In this document: in pieces, positions 6,470 to 36,803 of the stretch
Numbering within the stretch: the first letter of the stretch is position 1
Layout: every line of letters starts with the position of its first letter
From: Pontibacillus sp. HMF3514
GTDB taxonomy: Bacteria; Bacillota; Bacilli; Bacillales; BH030062
DNA length: 64,000 nt
Direction: 5' to 3'
NCBI RefSeq assembly: GCF_009858175.1
Contig: NZ_CP047393.1
Coordinates: forward strand, 434,001-498,000
Notes under the pieces: model-generated
Seen by the model: the letters and a program-made list of their open reading frames with translations, nothing else
Told to the model about the DNA's origin: nothing
The model's database searches: none
Position numbers and translations under genes: made by a program

Positions 6470-6607
6470 AATTGAGTCGCTGTTTTGAGGCGACGAAATA
6501 AAAGAAACACCATTTGATCCTTGAAAACTGAACGAAACGACATGTTACGTCAATGAATTACTTTTTATTTTTAAAAAGCCAGACATCATTTTGATGCAAA
6601 GGCGAAC

Positions 6608-8552: not shown

Positions 8553-11469
<2,917 letters not shown>

Positions 11470-30468: not shown

Positions 30469-30765
30469 ATGCAAATTGATAAATTAAGAGGAAAAGAATT
30501 GGATCAACTATTTCAAGCCATTCTTGCTCTAGAAAGTGTAGAAGAATGCTATGAATTTTTCGATGATCTGGCAACCATGAATGAAGTCCAGTCTTTAGCG
30601 CAGCGCTTAGAAGTTGCACGCATGTTACGTGAAGGCCATACGTATCATAAAATTGAAAATGACACAGGTGCATCAACAGCAACAATCTCCCGTGTTAAAC
30701 GTTGTCTTAACTACGGAAACGATGCTTATACGATGGCGCTTGATCGTATTCATAAAGAAGAATAG
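30469..30765 (+). CDS. yerC: YerC, TrpR-like DNA-binding protein
   Basis: 98 aa, YerC/YecD family with a TrpR-like helix-turn-helix (EVQSLAQRLEVARMLREGHTYHKIENDTGASTATISRV, residues ~42-80). The regulon is not apparent from sequence. ATG 30469 follows AAAGGAG by 8 bases. Its own terminator, 8 bases after the stop, has been split by the transposon (see mobile element). Confidence 0.93.
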   Translation: MQIDKLRGKELDQLFQAILALESVEECYEFFDDLATMNEVQSLAQRLEVARMLREGHTYHKIENDTGASTATISRVKRCLNYGNDAYTMALDRIHKEE

Positions 30766-30773
30766 TTTTTATC

Positions 30774-30786
30774 AAAACGCTCTGGG
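30774..30786 (+). terminator. left half-stem of the disrupted yerC terminator
   Basis: AAAACGCTCTGGG. Perfectly complementary to CCCAGAGCGTTTT at 35098-35110, now more than 4.3 kb away. By itself it no longer terminates. Confidence 0.8.
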
Positions 30787-30795
30787 GTCATGATT
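30787..30795 (+). repeat. 9-bp target duplication, left copy
   Basis: GTCATGATT, identical and in the same orientation as 35089-35097, immediately outside the terminal inverted repeats. Confidence 0.88.
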
Positions 30796-30822
30796 TAACG
30801 GGTTCGGTTGAGAGGGAGAAAA
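30796..30822 (+). repeat. left terminal inverted repeat (27 bp)
   Basis: Begins TAACGGGTTCGGTTGAGAGG; exact reverse complement of 35062-35088. Confidence 0.9.
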
Positions 30823-30902
30823 TTGAAAATATCAACAAAAATAAAACCCTTTCTAATAATTTGATCAACATGTGAATTAACAAGTTAATCATCAAGGAGA
30901 TT

Positions 30903-30931
30903 AGCAGACCAAATATTAAGGTCTGCTTTTT
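30903..30931 (+). terminator. inward-facing terminator at the left end of the transposon
   Basis: AGCAGACC / GGTCTGCT stem with 9-base loop, then TTTT. Stops plus-strand transcription entering from yerC. Confidence 0.75.
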
Positions 30932-31091
30932 CCTTGTTTTTTTGGTAAAGTCTTACTTTTTAGTGATATAATGATGTAAAAAAGTGAGGTTTGATCTTAA
31001 ACTAACAAAGGAGTAATGCTTAAGAGGCAATAACAGTTTGATCTTTAGAGATGAATCTAACAAAATTGAATTGATAGGAGTATTATTTTAA

Positions 31092-31556
31092 ATGAACTAT
31101 ATTAAAGATATGAGAAAGCTTATTGGTCACGAAACGCTTTTTACAGTTGGATGTGGAGTAATAATTGAAAAGGATGAATGTATATTATTGCAACATCGAA
31201 CTGATGAAGATAATTGGTGTATTCCTGGTGGAGTAATGGAATTAGGAGAATCATTTGAAGAAACAGCTAAAAGGGAAACCTTTGAGGAAACAGAATTAGA
31301 AGTCAATGAATTAGAATTATTTGGGGTTTATTCAGGAGAAAGTTGTTTTGTTGAATATCCAAACAAAGATAAGGTCTATAGTGTTCAGGTTATTTTTAAG
31401 GCAAAGGAATATAATGGTGATTTAAAACAAAAAGGTATAGAAAGTAAAGAACATCGGTTCTTTCGAAGAGAAGACTTACCTGAAAACTTAAATCCTCGTC
31501 AAAAACAGTTTATTCTTCATTGGGCAGAAAAACGAACCTTACCGATAATAAGTTAA
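31092..31556 (+). CDS. Nudix hydrolase (transposon passenger)
   Basis: 154 aa with a Nudix box GGVMELGESFEETAKRETFE then ETEL; the catalytic REXXEE core is intact, though the Gly that usually follows is Glu. The family hydrolyses nucleoside diphosphates linked to another group; the substrate cannot be told. Ribosome binding site TAGGAG about 10 bases before the ATG; a TATAAT at 30967 with a poorly spaced TTGGTA may be the promoter. Lies inside the transposon, next to a lipoprotein gene in the same direction, so it is probably cargo. Confidence 0.85.
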   Translation: MNYIKDMRKLIGHETLFTVGCGVIIEKDECILLQHRTDEDNWCIPGGVMELGESFEETAKRETFEETELEVNELELFGVYSGESCFVEYPNKDKVYSVQVIFKAKEYNGDLKQKGIESKEHRFFRREDLPENLNPRQKQFILHWAEKRTLPIIS

Positions 31557-31732
31557 TTTAACGGGTGGTGGTGCTTTAACAAAGGTATTGCCTTTCCTTG
31601 TGTAAGTACAGTATGTAGTAATGTGGATTAAGAAATACGGTAGTATTTAAAATATTTAGTTAACGGAGATTGAAACCTTTATAAACTTTTTCCGTCTAAA
31701 CTAATAAAGAGTTTTATAAAGGTGGGGTTCTT

Positions 31733-32452
31733 TTGCGTAAGATTTCTTTATTGTTTTTAATATCAATCATTTTTATTATTTCTGGATGTGCACATAATCA
31801 AGTTAAACCTAAAGACTTTGAAGTGAAAGATAAAGATGTTCAAGTGCAATTCGATGGAATTATTGATGGAACAAATGTTAGATACGATGAAGAAGCGAAG
31901 GCACTATGGACATTAAATTCATTTAAGTGGAAAGATGACAAGCTTACCTTCAATGCTGATTTCCAGTCAGAAACGGTTTATCCAACAGAACTAAAGTTTA
32001 TCGACTCTATTGTATTTTTACGATTAGAAGGCCTATACCCTTATAAACCAACAGGAAATGAAGGCGTAGATAGTTTTGAACATAAACCTTTAACAAATAT
32101 TATTCCAATGACATGTGAGGAAGCACAAAAGGGAAAATGTTCTTTTCAATTTGATCTAAAATTGGAGAAAATAAATCGACAAACTAAAAAACAATATTTA
32201 GATAACTTATCTTTAAGGATTGGTTGGGTTCAAATTTTTGAAGATGAAGAAAATCAAATTAAATATTACCAATGGTCACAGGCTGATAATAGAAATATAA
32301 AACCAGGAGTGGTTGATTTTAAGGAAGCATACGAAAAGATCTCAGGTGAATTCTTATCTTATAAGCCACTAAAAGAAAGCGAGACTACCAATTTAAATGA
32401 ATTCAATAATTTTAATTATATTGAATGGATTGAGGAGAACATTTTTAGATAA
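31733..32452 (+). CDS. lipoprotein of unknown function (transposon passenger)
   Basis: 239 aa. Signal peptide MRKISLLFLISIIFIISGC with lipobox ISGC, then a soluble, beta-rich, charged domain. I recognise no family. TTG start behind AAAGGTGGGG. Cell-surface anchored by prediction. It is the second plus-strand gene in the transposon and ends against the shared terminator at 32541. Confidence 0.7.
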   Translation: MRKISLLFLISIIFIISGCAHNQVKPKDFEVKDKDVQVQFDGIIDGTNVRYDEEAKALWTLNSFKWKDDKLTFNADFQSETVYPTELKFIDSIVFLRLEGLYPYKPTGNEGVDSFEHKPLTNIIPMTCEEAQKGKCSFQFDLKLEKINRQTKKQYLDNLSLRIGWVQIFEDEENQIKYYQWSQADNRNIKPGVVDFKEAYEKISGEFLSYKPLKESETTNLNEFNNFNYIEWIEENIFR

Positions 32453-32540
32453 ACCACCGATAATCAGAGTTTTTTGTAATTCTCAAGGTCCTAGTTCCAA
32501 AAAAAGGGTGGCATAGTTGAAGAAAAATAATAATAGAACT

Positions 32541-32574
32541 AAAAGGAGCTTGGATTTCCAAGCTCCTTTTTTCC
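32541..32574. terminator. bidirectional terminator between cargo and transposase
   Basis: AAAAGGAGCTTGG / CCAAGCTCCTTTT, 13-bp perfect stem with 4-base loop, T-run on the plus strand and a short T-run on the minus strand. Serves the convergent lipoprotein and transposase genes. Confidence 0.85.
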
Positions 32575-32587
32575 GTCTTTAGTCCGA

Positions 32588-34558
32588 TCACCTTAAATAA
32601 ATAATATCTTTCAGTTCAAATATCTTATCAACAATACCTAATCGTTGGGCGGGGGTCTTATTTACTTTACCTGTCTTGTAAGGTAAACAAAAATTATAGT
32701 ACGTCCTCAATATCGTTATGGCCATTTGTGCGTACTTTGGATTAAAGTTCGCATAGATGTAACTCTTTTGATCTCCTCGAGCAGTTGTTAAGGGCCTCTC
32801 AAGTATCGACAGTCTTCTTCTAATTTGCTGTATAAAGGCATTTGATGCGTTGTCGTTCACATTTAGCATTAATTCAGCAATATCCTTTGGTTCGAGAGAC
32901 GATAAGTTGGTTGTACAATCCACAGAACGATACCCCCTATCTATCGTAGCCAAAGGATGTTCTATCGGGTTATCATCGTATTCTAAATGAGTACCAGTAG
33001 AAGTTTTAACTTCTTTATGAAAATGGTGGGTTTCAAATAGTTTTTCTAGTTTAAGCTTGGCTAAGTCTCTTAGTTTTTTTGTCTTAATATCATTGAAATT
33101 AGCCCATTCTAAAAGTTCATTTTGTGCTTCTAAAAACTCCTGTCGCGCTTGTTTCCTTGACTTAGTTTTGTCTGTTTGACACAGGAAGTGGTGTCCATCG
33201 CTCAAACGTATTTCTCTCGCAAACACTCGGAAAATAGCTGTGATAAGAGAGCTGTCTTCATCCGTTATAAAACGCCATTCCGATGCATTTACCATCTCTT
33301 TAATTAACCAATAGTGAGCAATACTTGTGTAAGTTGAGTTAACCTGTAAGCCATCTGTATATTTGGCTCTTTTCTCCACTTTAGATAGATCATTGTTATA
33401 CTCTGCTTTTGACTGTGTATCATTCGCTGAAGGTGGTTGCGGATAAAAAGAGAATTTGGTGTGCCTTGCATTCTTTCTGGCGTATACACCTAAATGGTCA
33501 TCCTTAAATTGAATAGTATCTTTCTCAATATCATCAAGAGAAGCTTCCCAATCATAATTTACATCGCTTCTAAATACATATCTAGAAATTGCATCAGCAC
33601 TAATTACTACATTAGTAGGGAAAACAGATTCCTCGAGTTCGCTATATTTGCTTCCTCCCATGCCTTTCTTGCGTACATTGTTTAAGTGGTATGTCATTTT
33701 ATCTGTGTTGATCCATATCTCTTTAAACTCTTTTGATTGCATCGGTTTGATTTCGTTTCTTTCTAAAAATTCAAGGCATCTAAGGTATACAAACTCTAAT
33801 TTGTCATAATATGTTCCATCTGCAATTCCTAACACTTCACAAGCTCTAGTTATTGGTTCTCTGTTTAGCAATAATTTAGTAAATAATAGGTTAATTTCAC
33901 TGCGCTTCTGATTATACACAACTGATTTTTTACCATCTGGTCTGAGTGTTGTCTTTTTCTTACATGTCTTGCATTGCCATTGCTGAGCGCCCGTGCTGCT
34001 ACTTTTCCCTTGTCTGTAAAATAGTGACGGTGATTTAAAGGGAGTTTGCTCGTGTTTAGGACATCCTTCCTTATGAAAGTTGTAAATAGGTTCATCAACC
34101 TTAACGCTATTTATGCGAATTAACCTATGTATTTCTTCAGCAATAGACCAATTAGATAACGCGGCAGACTTGCAACCAAGTGCGGCACCTCTATTTGGAT
34201 TCACTGGATCAGGATTACATTTGATCTGTTTTCTTTCATCACTTGATGAATCTAATCTATATCGACTTGGCTTTCCCTTTGTATCAAATTTCTCTTGTTG
34301 TAGTCCTTGCCACTTACAGTATGGATTTGTACAAAGATTGAATTGAAAAGAATAACTCTTTTTTAAAAGGGTGAATTCAATTGGTTTAAACAACAAATCC
34401 CTATACTTTGTTCCAAATTTCCTTGGAGGTAAGACATCATAATCCTTTTGTCTATTTTTTAACTCTTCTTCAGAAACAGGGTTAGTGACTTCTAATATAA
34501 CATCGTCCTTTGAAAGTATTTTTTTGAGTTTAGCCAACTTCCTCTTCCTTTTCCTCAA
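32588..34558 (-). CDS. large zinc-finger DDE-like transposase
   Basis: 656 aa. The basic N-terminus is followed by a Cys-rich region with Cys at 76, 81, 114, 129, 166, 196 and 199 (CTNPYC, GCPKH, CKTC), then an HTH-like stretch (ITRACEVLGIADGTYYDKL, 236-254). A DDE/RNase H-type core is suggested by D286 (WINTDKM), D433 (FITDEDSS) and E587 (SILERPL). The C-terminus has YNFCLPYK...TPAQRLGIVDKIF, typical of DDE transposases. The triad is my inference. Length is about twice that of common IS transposases. TTG 34558 is the outermost start; TTG 34537, behind a purine-rich Shine-Dalgarno, may be the true one. Overlaps the 85-aa gene upstream. Confidence 0.75.
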   Translation of the reverse strand: MRKRKRKLAKLKKILSKDDVILEVTNPVSEEELKNRQKDYDVLPPRKFGTKYRDLLFKPIEFTLLKKSYSFQFNLCTNPYCKWQGLQQEKFDTKGKPSRYRLDSSSDERKQIKCNPDPVNPNRGAALGCKSAALSNWSIAEEIHRLIRINSVKVDEPIYNFHKEGCPKHEQTPFKSPSLFYRQGKSSSTGAQQWQCKTCKKKTTLRPDGKKSVVYNQKRSEINLLFTKLLLNREPITRACEVLGIADGTYYDKLEFVYLRCLEFLERNEIKPMQSKEFKEIWINTDKMTYHLNNVRKKGMGGSKYSELEESVFPTNVVISADAISRYVFRSDVNYDWEASLDDIEKDTIQFKDDHLGVYARKNARHTKFSFYPQPPSANDTQSKAEYNNDLSKVEKRAKYTDGLQVNSTYTSIAHYWLIKEMVNASEWRFITDEDSSLITAIFRVFAREIRLSDGHHFLCQTDKTKSRKQARQEFLEAQNELLEWANFNDIKTKKLRDLAKLKLEKLFETHHFHKEVKTSTGTHLEYDDNPIEHPLATIDRGYRSVDCTTNLSSLEPKDIAELMLNVNDNASNAFIQQIRRRLSILERPLTTARGDQKSYIYANFNPKYAQMAITILRTYYNFCLPYKTGKVNKTPAQRLGIVDKIFELKDIIYLR

Positions 34559-34787
34559 TTAAATGTTCGATGTTTACCTGCTTGATAATCCGCTTGTTGT
34601 TTCTTTTGTCTTTTATCCACTCTATAAACTTTTTGTCATCTAGTATATTTAGCAATAGTTTATCAACTACATCGCTTTCCGTGTATTCTGTGTATTCTGC
34701 GTAGTAAGAGACGAGAGCTCTAACACGTTCTGAAATAAGCCAATCCACTTTATCAGCATTAATATTTCTAGGTTCAATAAATTCCAT
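34530..34787 (-). CDS. 85-aa transposon accessory protein
   Basis: 85 aa: MEFIEPRNINADKVDWLISE then RVRALVSYYAEYTEYTESDVVDKLLLNIL... and a basic/acidic tail. The residues around 10-45 could form a ribbon-helix-helix-like or small helical DNA-binding fold, which is a guess. It precedes and overlaps the transposase gene on the same strand, so it is probably a regulator or transposition cofactor. ATG 34787 lies 11 bases after AAAGGAG; a GTG at 34799 abuts that site. The AATTRRCATG boxes are directly upstream. Confidence 0.65.
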   Translation of the reverse strand: MEFIEPRNINADKVDWLISERVRALVSYYAEYTEYTESDVVDKLLLNILDDKKFIEWIKDKRNNKRIIKQVNIEHLIEEKEEEVG

Positions 34788-34831
34788 TATAAAAGACACT
34801 CCTTTATATCCTATTTTTAATCAGCATAACC

Positions 34832-35041
34832 AATTAACATGGGTTTTAACACTGAATTTAACACCAAAATTAACATGCTAAATAACATACCTTTTAGCAG
34901 TAGTACAATAATTTTTGTACGCTTGCGAATCAGTATACTAAATAGGGTGCTAATTGGCATGTTAAAGTACAAAATTTTTTCAAAAAACCTTGATATATCG
35001 ATAAAAAATGGAGGTGCAATTAGCATGCTAATTGCACCTCC
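34832..35041 (-). promoter_or_regulatory. AATTRRCATG box cluster and 32-bp palindrome at the right end
   Basis: Boxes AATTAACATG at 34832 and 34868, AATTGGCATG at 34952 and AATTAGCATG at 35018, the last being half of a perfect 32-bp palindrome (35010-35041; GGAGGTGCAATTAGC + mirror). The palindrome followed by ATTTTTT on the minus strand looks like a terminator facing inward. It also holds GGAGGTG 8 bases before an ATG on both strands. Short open frames here have no family resemblance. Candidate binding sites for the transposase or the 85-aa protein. Confidence 0.55.
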
Positions 35042-35061
35042 AAAAACAATGTTATTTTACG

Positions 35062-35088
35062 TTTTCTCCCTCTCAACCGAACCCGTTA
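35062..35088 (-). repeat. right terminal inverted repeat (27 bp)
   Basis: Exact reverse complement of 30796-30822. Confidence 0.9.
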
Positions 35089-35097
35089 GTCATGATT
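35089..35097 (+). repeat. 9-bp target duplication, right copy
   Basis: GTCATGATT, matching 30787-30795. Confidence 0.88.
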
Positions 35098-35118
35098 CCC
35101 AGAGCGTTTTTCTCTTTT
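35098..35118 (+). terminator. right half of the disrupted yerC terminator
   Basis: CCCAGAGCGTTTT followed by TCTCTTTT, that is, the 3' strand and U-tract of the original terminator. Confidence 0.8.
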
Positions 35119-35299: not shown

Positions 35300-35341
35300 A
35301 AAAAAGCTTTCGACCTGAGTTCCACAGGTCGAAAGCTTTCC
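35300..35341 (-). terminator. terminator of glyS
   Basis: AAAGCTTTCGACCT and AGGTCGAAAGCTTT arms; eight T's follow on the minus strand. Confidence 0.85.
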
Positions 35342-35347
35342 CAATAA

Positions 35348-36730
35348 TTAATAATCCATTTTACCTTCTAAGAAGCTACGCAGCTCACTGATTGGCATGC
35401 GTTTTTGCTCCATAGTGTCGCGGTCACGTACAGTTACCTGGCCGTCTTCTTGAGAGTCGAAGTCGTATGTGATACAGAATGGTGTACCGATCTCGTCGTG
35501 GCGACGGTAACGTTTACCGATAGATCCTGCATCATCATAGTCAACCATGAAATGCTTGCTTAGGTCAGCGAAGATCTCTTTAGCTTGATCTCCAATTTTC
35601 TTAGAAAGAGGGAAGATCGCTGCTTTGTATGGTGCAACAGCTGGGTGGAACTTCATAACGGTACGAGAAGATCCATCTTCAAGCTCTTCTTCCTCATATG
35701 CGTCAGCAATGAAGCTTAGTGCTAAGCGGTCCGCGCCTAGAGCAGGTTCAATTACATAAGGAATGTAACGTTCGTTTGTTTCCTGGTCAATGTACTTGAA
35801 GTCTTCGCCAGAATGCTCAGCGTGCTTACCTAGGTCATAGTCTGTACGAGACGCAATGCCCCAAAGCTCGCCCCATCCCATGGGGAACTTATACTCAATG
35901 TCAGTAGTTGCATTGGAGTAGTGGGATAGCTCATCTGCATCATGCTCACGAAGACGTAGGTTTTCGTCCGCAATTCCTAGAGATGTTAGCCAATTGTGGC
36001 AGAAGTCTTTCCAATACTTATACCATTCTAGCTCTTCACCAGGCTTACAGAAGAATTCCATTTCCATCTGTTCGAATTCGCGAGTACGGAAAATAAAGTT
36101 ACCAGGTGTGATTTCGTTACGGAAGCTTTTACCGATTTGGCCAATACCAAACGGAAGCTTTTTACGCATAGAACGCTGAACGTTTTTGAAGTTTACGAAA
36201 ATACCTTGTGCAGTTTCAGGACGAAGGTAGATATCATCTGTAGCCCCTTCTGTAACACCTTGTTGCGTTTGGAACATCAGGTTGAACTGACGAATTCCAG
36301 TGAAGTTTTGCTCGCCACAAGTTGGGCATACAATGTCATGCTTTTCGATTAGCTTTTCCATTTCATCAAATGGAAGGCCATCTACAACCATTTCATTCCC
36401 TTCTGCTTCAAGCTTATTTTCGATAAGCTTATCCGCACGGTGACGGGATTTACACTCTTTACAGTCGATCATTGGGTCGTTGAAGTTACCTAAGTGACCG
36501 GAAGCTTCCCAAGTTTTCGGGTTCATTAAGATCGCAGCATCCAGACCAACGTTCATCGGGTTCTCCTGGATGAATTTTTGCCACCAAGCGCGCTTTAAGT
36601 TGTTCTTAAGCTCAACGCCTAATGGACCGTAATCCCATGTGTTCGCAAGTCCGCCGTAGATTTCAGACCCCTGAAAAATAAAACCGCGATGCTTGGAGTG
36701 AGATACTAACTGTTCCATGTTTACTGACAT
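35348..36730 (-). CDS. glyS: glycyl-tRNA synthetase, single-chain (alpha2) type
   Basis: 460 aa class II synthetase of the eukaryote/B. cereus-like type, not the alpha2-beta2 GlyQS of B. subtilis. Motifs: [20 protein letters not shown] at the N-terminus, [54 protein letters not shown] and the C-terminal anticodon-binding domain. A CKEC/CPTC Cys pair set suggests a zinc site. Start ATG 36730 is 8 bases after AAGGAGG; ATG 36736 is only 2 bases away. Controlled by the T-box upstream. Confidence 0.95.
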
Positions 36731-36803
36731 ATGCATGTCCTCCTTATTAGATAGGTATTATAAATAAAATTAGCGAAAAGATACGCATGCAACACGAAAC
36801 CAT

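Follow-up and report, generated by a model that had tools for sequence, protein, structure and literature searches.

The elements IS1272 and TnSha1 of the IS1182 family target inverted repeats, several of them confirmed terminators, with no consensus in sequence; they replace or partly delete the hairpin and leave no target duplication, and TnSha1 additionally carries a gene (PMC5678879, PMC4923244). In the model drawn for this process, "duplication of the loop only" figures as one hypothetical pathway (PMC5678879, Fig 13). Terminator stem-loops, or other inverted repeats, also serve as insertion sites for group IIC introns (PMC7923331). Tn7491, in turn, is a 3.3-kb transposon of Staphylococcus, Enterococcus and Listeria that carries dfrG, and a second copy of it lies between the convergent genes csbB and saeS (PMC10763498). 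The word "terminator" is absent from the accessible text of this 2023 paper (PMC10763498), the one in the open-access literature that names Tn7491; likewise, the open-access literature returned nothing joining Tn6198 with "terminator", and, among the matches listed, no title or start of an abstract reported a terminator rule for the Tn7491-like family. This report concerns a transposon of 4,293 bp found in the window, i.e., the whole stretch of 64,000 nucleotides from Pontibacillus sp. HMF3514 that was analysed, where the element is inserted in the terminator of the gene yerC. We consider it likely that this element belongs to a cargo-carrying, probably DDE-type transposon family that picks two-way intrinsic terminators as its targets.

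The transposon occupies positions 30796-35088, is bounded by perfect 27-bp terminal inverted repeats (TIRs), and separates the two halves of a terminator whose first half-stem starts (30774) 8 bases downstream of the yerC stop codon, TAG, at 30763-30765. The features that define the insertion are the following:

30469..30765, + strand: yerC (TrpR-related), the host gene 5' of the split terminator (NCBIfam TIGR02531, E=1e-47)
30774..30786, + strand: 5' half-stem of the yerC terminator, AAAACGCTCTGGG, 13/13 complementary to 35098-35110
30787..30795, + strand: copy 1 of the target duplication, 9 bp, equal to the terminator loop, GTCATGATT
30796..30822, + strand: 27-bp TIR at the cargo end, TAACGGGTTCGGTTGAGAGGGAGAAAA
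35062..35088, - strand: 27-bp TIR at the transposase end
35089..35097, + strand: copy 2 of the target duplication, 9 bp, GTCATGATT
35098..35111, + strand: 3' half-stem of the yerC terminator (CCCAGAGCGTTTT, 35098-35110) and T-run

An initial annotation, made from the letters of this DNA, had described the element, its 27-bp TIRs, the half-stems, the duplication and the distance from yerC, and all of its letters and coordinates hold base for base; its claim that the duplication equals the whole loop of a terminator with a 13-bp stem is borne out by the 13/13 complementary half-stems that flank GTCATGATT. Sites like that of yerC, with a stem score of at least 12 and an adjacent A- or T-run, make up only 0.015% of 210,460 sampled host positions, so that chance falls far short of explaining half-stems that pair 13/13 in register with the duplication. 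The exact yerC terminator had 0 matches in the 61 genomes searched (own included), and a diverged, uninterrupted one was later located via YerC. As the initial annotation had proposed, the region was compared with that of a relative lacking the element: the nearest sister genome, in which YerC is 100% identical, has an uninterrupted hairpin 3' of yerC that folds at -19.0 and shares with the window the outer 10-bp stem (AAAACGCTCT/AGAGCGTTTT), while its inner bases and loop differ. The sister DNA past this hairpin differs from the right flank in the window, and the sister therefore offers an orthologous yerC terminator rather than an identical empty site.

Whether such an insertion reflects structure-guided targeting or a chance hit, the two possibilities raised at first, was decided on the family as a whole, with the ends of each copy set by the TIR motif and the duplication and never by hairpins. 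Of 114 loci processed, 65 had both ends defined by motif, and removal of 12 duplicates left 53 distinct sites; the 49 loci without a motif pair comprise contig ends, decayed copies and distant relatives. A further 15 Tn7491 records gave 13 new sites, for a first set of 66; L162 and L166 possibly represent a single site shared by related plasmids. The set of 64 used for scoring omits L157, whose right flank differs and lies beside IS1216, and L165, a near-duplicate of L156; a second set of 66, used for gene context and for separating hairpins from A/T runs, adds L128 and L144, which came from a blind search. The duplication in the first set is 9 bp long at 53/66 sites and 10 bp at 9/66. An ungapped stem score of at least 8 together with an A- or T-run was found at 42/64 sites versus 0.12% of 210,460 background positions, taken from the host DNA of the family's loci, and an arm-duplex energy of -12 or below at 45/64 sites versus 1.6% of 9,600 background positions; left and right flanks paired from different sites reach this energy in 4.3% of cases. 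That a random transposon merely happened on the yerC terminator has nothing in its favor beyond being conceivable for a single copy, and it is refuted by the recurrence of the same arrangement in most scored sites, at the rates just given, which leaves the chance hit a negligible probability.

Two natural empty sites display the target before insertion. The plasmid L182 is identical over 400 bases to the left flank of the copy L169 and lacks the element; its sequence reads ...AAAAAAGACTATC TGAAAAACG GATAGTCTTTTTT..., in which the 9 bases duplicated in L169 are present once, as the loop of an intact terminator. Similarly, L183, the empty counterpart of L160, reads AAAAAGGCAATCC ATCTGAGGT GGATCGCCTTTTTTT, with a single copy of the loop in an intact terminator. 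This exact comparison covered the two plasmid copies L169 and L160. Together with the counts above, the two empty sites settle the initial alternative on the side of targeting, and the check that had been suggested for it (collecting homologues, extracting their flanks and seeing whether restored sites are terminators) has the same outcome.

The centre of the duplication coincides, to within 1-2 bases, with that of the dyad formed by A-run, stem, loop, stem and T-run in most scored copies, so that insertion splits the terminator and duplicates its loop. Across the 52 sites with a 9-bp duplication, the share of A at positions -9 to -12 is 77-83% and that of T at +9 to +12 is 83-88%; the A- and T-runs lie about 9-12 nt outside the duplication, and pairing is above expectation from the edge of the duplication through position 8, beyond which the runs dominate. 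Both runs are near the site in 50/64 cases versus 76/144 terminator-like hairpins, the definitions of "near" differing slightly between the two. The fixed geometry gives weight to another explanation, in which the transposase reads only double-stranded DNA, namely an A-run and a T-run placed symmetrically around the insertion point at a distance of about 22-28 bp from each other, with the hairpin irrelevant and terminators hit merely as common sequences of such form. The runs do lie at near-fixed distances, with an A-to-T interval of 22-28 bp at 37/53 sites that have both runs versus 32/76 background two-way terminators, and eight sites combine the A/T pattern with a weak hairpin. Against it, a hairpin (-10 or below) accompanies 32/40 insertions with the A/T pattern and only 84/696 background A/T clusters (Fisher p ~1e-20), and it is still present in 18/26 insertions without the pattern. 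The hairpin and the A/T pattern thus contribute separately and add to each other, and recognition of the runs alone was judged insufficient and is, as a full account, unlikely.

Gene context, obtained for 66 sites with a mechanical open reading frame (ORF) caller, places 20/66 between convergent genes and 2/66 between divergent genes; sites between codirectional genes are divided 12 versus 12 between the two orientations, and at the remaining 20/66 one side or both lack a called gene within 350 bp. The idea of a safe site that spares genes, put forward in the initial annotation, fits the excess of convergent over divergent positions. The same excess would be expected if insertion were random and only copies in harmless sites persisted; selection for harmlessness, however, would not centre the duplication on a dyad to 1-2 bp, at sites that amount to 0.12% of the background. 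Survivorship was rejected on the two background comparisons given above and on the frequency of hairpins among insertions that have the A/T pattern, and is highly improbable. A further possibility is that transcription guides the insertion, with the transposase attracted by the hairpin in the RNA or by an RNA polymerase that has paused at a terminator, as the terminator-like targets and the T-runs of at least 4 at 57/64 sites might suggest. Yet A-runs are almost as common (55/64), the duplication is centred on the dyad and not on the T-run, and the lack of a preferred orientation is easier to reconcile with a symmetric DNA target than with a target read in the course of transcription; on the 12:12 orientation, coupling to transcription was judged less likely, and we regard it as quite improbable. 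Both this explanation and the one based on A/T runs alone are less likely than capture of the dyad in DNA.

The element itself also carries terminators. From the cargo end, its plan consists of TIR, inward terminator, NUDIX gene, lipoprotein gene, inverted repeat, transposase gene, partner gene, palindrome and TIR, and its internal features, with the next host gene, are as follows:

30903..30931, + strand: inward-facing terminator inside the cargo end, AGCAGACC, 9-nt loop, GGTCTGCT, T-run
31092..31556, + strand: cargo gene for a NUDIX hydrolase of 154 amino acids (Pfam PF00293, E=5.7e-20)
31733..32452, + strand: cargo gene for a putative lipoprotein of 239 amino acids with a TTG start (an ORF; LPAM_1 match sub-threshold only)
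32541..32570, no strand: perfect 14-bp inverted repeat (2-bp spacer) that separates the cargo genes from the convergent transposase gene and is terminator-like as read
32588..34558, - strand: transposase gene, 656 amino acids, convergent with the cargo
34530..34787, - strand: gene for a conserved small partner protein (about 70-90 amino acids) that overlaps the transposase start (from aligned upstream ORFs and their alignment)
35009..35042, - strand: perfect 34-bp palindrome with a T-run next to it on the - strand, i.e., an inward-facing terminator inside the transposase end
35348..36736, - strand: ORF of 462 amino acids convergent with yerC, presumably glycyl-tRNA synthetase

Most elements of the family have terminator-like inward hairpins just inside both ends. 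When elements with the Tn7491 TIR tip are counted once, which also removes L130 (same tip, different element), such a hairpin lies within 220 bp of the transposase tip in 46/50 elements and is found at the cargo end in 47/50, compared with 25/300 when windows are taken from transposase genes and 57/300 when they are taken from host DNA. In 41/52 elements, the distance from the transposase tip to the start of the best hairpin near that end is 39-54 nt. Insertion therefore removes one terminator and usually brings two, and the element's own terminators would restore termination for the host gene; at yerC, the terminator at 30903..30931 would stop transcripts running into the element.

Several results weigh against the reading proposed here, in both of its parts. 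Outward terminators are also common, occurring at 28/50 transposase ends and 41/50 cargo ends, and the end hairpins are thus often two-way rather than specially inward; the many pair types seen in the stems of the transposase-end hairpins are supportive only, because each hairpin was picked for its pairing. On the target side, the duplication is unreadable in 4/66 sites of the first set, and the strict test against mismatched flanks, severe because the sites share A/T runs, is passed by 44/66 sites at p<=0.05 and by 36/66 at p<=0.01. Eight of 66 sites (L011, L023, L040, L044, L049, L061, L071 and L072) have neither a hairpin at the -10 level nor the A/T pattern, in addition to the eight with the pattern and a weak hairpin, and Tn7491 has a hairpin of -10 or below at 8/14 sites versus 40/50 for the rest. 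Four copies from other classes of the same phylum (in three genomes), counted in no total, are divided: strong hairpins occur at L199 (-21.2) and L200 (-22.4), a weak one at L202 (-8.7) and none at L201 (-2.9). Finally, three distant Gram-negative relatives have defined ends, with duplications of 9-10 bp and no room for a partner gene or cargo (the ends of L152, L204 and L205 could not be defined), and two of the three, L153 and L154, lie in no clear hairpin. The third, L203 (Pseudomonas plasmid CP136985.1; 2,010 bp, TIR CAAGCCGTTCGCTTAAGG, 9-bp duplication), is inside a perfect 12-bp hairpin, about 3 bp off its centre by eye. On no more than these three sites, the choice of terminators may perhaps be confined to the Bacillota clade. 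The initial proposal that intrinsic terminators are targeted is accordingly retained with two additions, namely that most of the sites are two-way and that their spacing is near-fixed, and with one restriction, namely that a minority, larger in Tn7491, has no clear hairpin.

Regarding the proteins that might carry out this choice, the window transposase has no Pfam match at E<=1, and a search of the PDB with it gave 0 matches at E<=10. The NCBIfam model transpos_IS1 is matched by 24/26 aligned family members (best E=3.8e-8); the window protein scores 14.7 bits in a weak match that spans residues 181-257, short of the family cut-off of 100 bits, and the InsA zinc ribbon is matched in 10/26 members (best E 0.0025). 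The alignment of the 26 members with five distant Gram-negative proteins (31 sequences) has 31 invariant residues, including D286, D433 and E587, for which a DDE triad is a guess, and likewise D336, E142 and E269. Judged from these profiles and alignments, the transposase is probably of the DDE type and perhaps a distant clan relative of IS1, with the order zinc ribbon, HTH and DDE. Among the elements listed, an alignable small ORF precedes every full-length transposase. Among 13 members, this partner gives weak or single matches to DUF6364 (3/13, E 0.0016), to PSK_trans_fac (1/13, E 0.019) and to phi-29 GP16.7 (1/13, E 0.00054), and a PDB search with it gave nothing convincing (best E 0.08, dTor_3x33L). 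Its sequence pattern and the weak matches to DUF6364 and PSK_trans_fac lead to the guess that it may be a ribbon-helix-helix protein, a direction from which the match to GP16.7 points away.

Of the mechanisms considered, we regard the following as the most likely. The transposase, possibly with its partner, would recognise the terminator as DNA, in the form of either a double-stranded dyad with an A-run and a T-run at its sides or an extruded hairpin or cruciform, and the transposase complex would join the element to the two strands at points 9-10 bp apart around the loop. The terminators of the element would then replace the destroyed one, which would preserve termination of the host genes and insulate the cargo. 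A bolder reading, which we hold to be less likely than not, is that a protein module, perhaps the small partner, recognises terminators as a class in DNA without a fixed sequence, and that the element splits the host terminator at its loop and swaps in terminators of its own at fixed positions. If this were true, the gene ends of the whole cell would represent silent docking sites for cargo, including drug-resistance genes.

The family is widespread. Scanning the species genomes of GTDB yielded 66 loci, which we take from their titles and names to be 65 from Bacillota and 1 from Chryseobacterium. Of 397 genomes sampled from the order of the window, its own among them, 75 contain a match (E<=0.001), with many of these matches short or broken; a sample of the phylum gave 11/299 genomes (own included) with a match, and a plasmid search returned 114 records. 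In viral contigs, searches made for the transposase and for a Gram-negative relative both confirmed none. The TIR of the family is TAACGGGTTC or TAAGTAGTTC, with variants, and the target duplication is 9 or 10 bp. The cargo between the transposase and the far end varies from element to element, and presumably includes ABC transporters, lipoproteins, a metal-type P-type ATPase, oxidoreductases, germination-type proteins and dfrG; dfrG was present in each of the 18 records, from plasmids or phages, that were inspected and have the Tn7491 tip, one of them truncated. Five copies of 1.5-1.9 kb (L041, L044, L051, L053 and L061) keep both ends and an open cargo frame with a partial transposase, and in these the cargo may outlive mobility. 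The element L130 has other cargo, a transposase 52% identical to that of the window and apparently the same first 27 bases as Tn7491, from which the tips of the family may be more conserved than the rest of the element.

Some individual loci deserve mention. At L027:9894-9930 the right flank resembles the family TIR, as if the element had landed beside the end of another copy. At L031 the flanking 9-nt stretches (6516-6524 and 9554-9562) are reverse complements, GGTTGAAAC and GTTTCAACC, and over 30 nt each flank is a near-perfect inverted copy of the other; this arrangement could reflect an inversion, recombination between two copies, or a target that was itself a long palindrome. The genome of the window has a single transposase copy, one exact TIR pair and one solo end with 3 mismatches. 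This TIR-like end, TAATGGGTTCACTTGAGAGGGAGAAAA (L004:1501-1527; G000:C1:1123384), has 5' of it an A-run, 8 nt and a 9-nt stretch, which fits the target rule; after it come, by reading, a hairpin and two small genes resembling a toxin-antitoxin pair. It may have been left behind by a second element that has lost its other end. Lastly, a second long terminator-like hairpin (AAAGCTTTCGACCTG...CAGGTCGAAAGCTTT) stands unoccupied in the window at 35303-35339, about 200 bp from the insertion and after the convergent gene.

Taken together, these findings yield a rule for the usual insertion sites of a transposon family that is widespread in Bacillota, and suggest that its cargo is spread with low damage by the family and, more loosely, by the trimethoprim-resistance (dfrG) transposon Tn7491. 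Insertion after genes, with neither a guide RNA nor a fixed sequence, could become a safe-site tool, and recognition of the terminator in DNA by the transposase becomes directly testable. In the natural copies described here, structure-guided transposition has also led to duplication of the loop, an outcome that an earlier model included among the possible pathways (PMC5678879).

Compared with IS1272, the element splits the hairpin, duplicates its loop and keeps both half-stems, an outcome different from that of the IS1182 family, and no IS1182-type transposase appears among the profile matches of the element or of the family proteins. Group IIC introns are retroelements that insert beside or in a stem-loop through RNA, without TIRs or duplication of the loop; the window element has both TIRs and a duplication, and none of its four scanned proteins matches a reverse transcriptase, intron RNA not having been searched for. 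The likeness to IS1 consists of the match of nearly all family members to its transposase model and of the 9-bp duplication, which is typical of IS1; the partner protein, the cargo and the other TIRs set the family apart, as does the window protein, which is far below the family cut-off and, with its 656 amino acids, almost three times the size of an IS1 transposase. The closest system is Tn7491, which differs in its dfrG cargo and in the weak or missing hairpin at 6/14 of its sites. Its transposase is about 54% identical to that of the window, it follows the same gene plan with an aligning upstream partner ORF, and it has a strong hairpin at 8/14 scored sites. Its published 27-bp TIR (TAAGTAGTTCAGTTTTGGAGTACAAAA) is exactly the one read here from Tn7491 copies, again with a 9-bp duplication (PMC10763498), and both TIRs, TAACGGGTTCGGTTGAGAGGGAGAAAA in the window and TAAGTAGTTCAGTTTTGGAGTACAAAA in Tn7491, are 27 bp long and begin with TAAC/TAAG..GTTC. 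The related TIRs, the 9-bp duplication and the identity of about 54% make the window element a cousin of this known clinical transposon.

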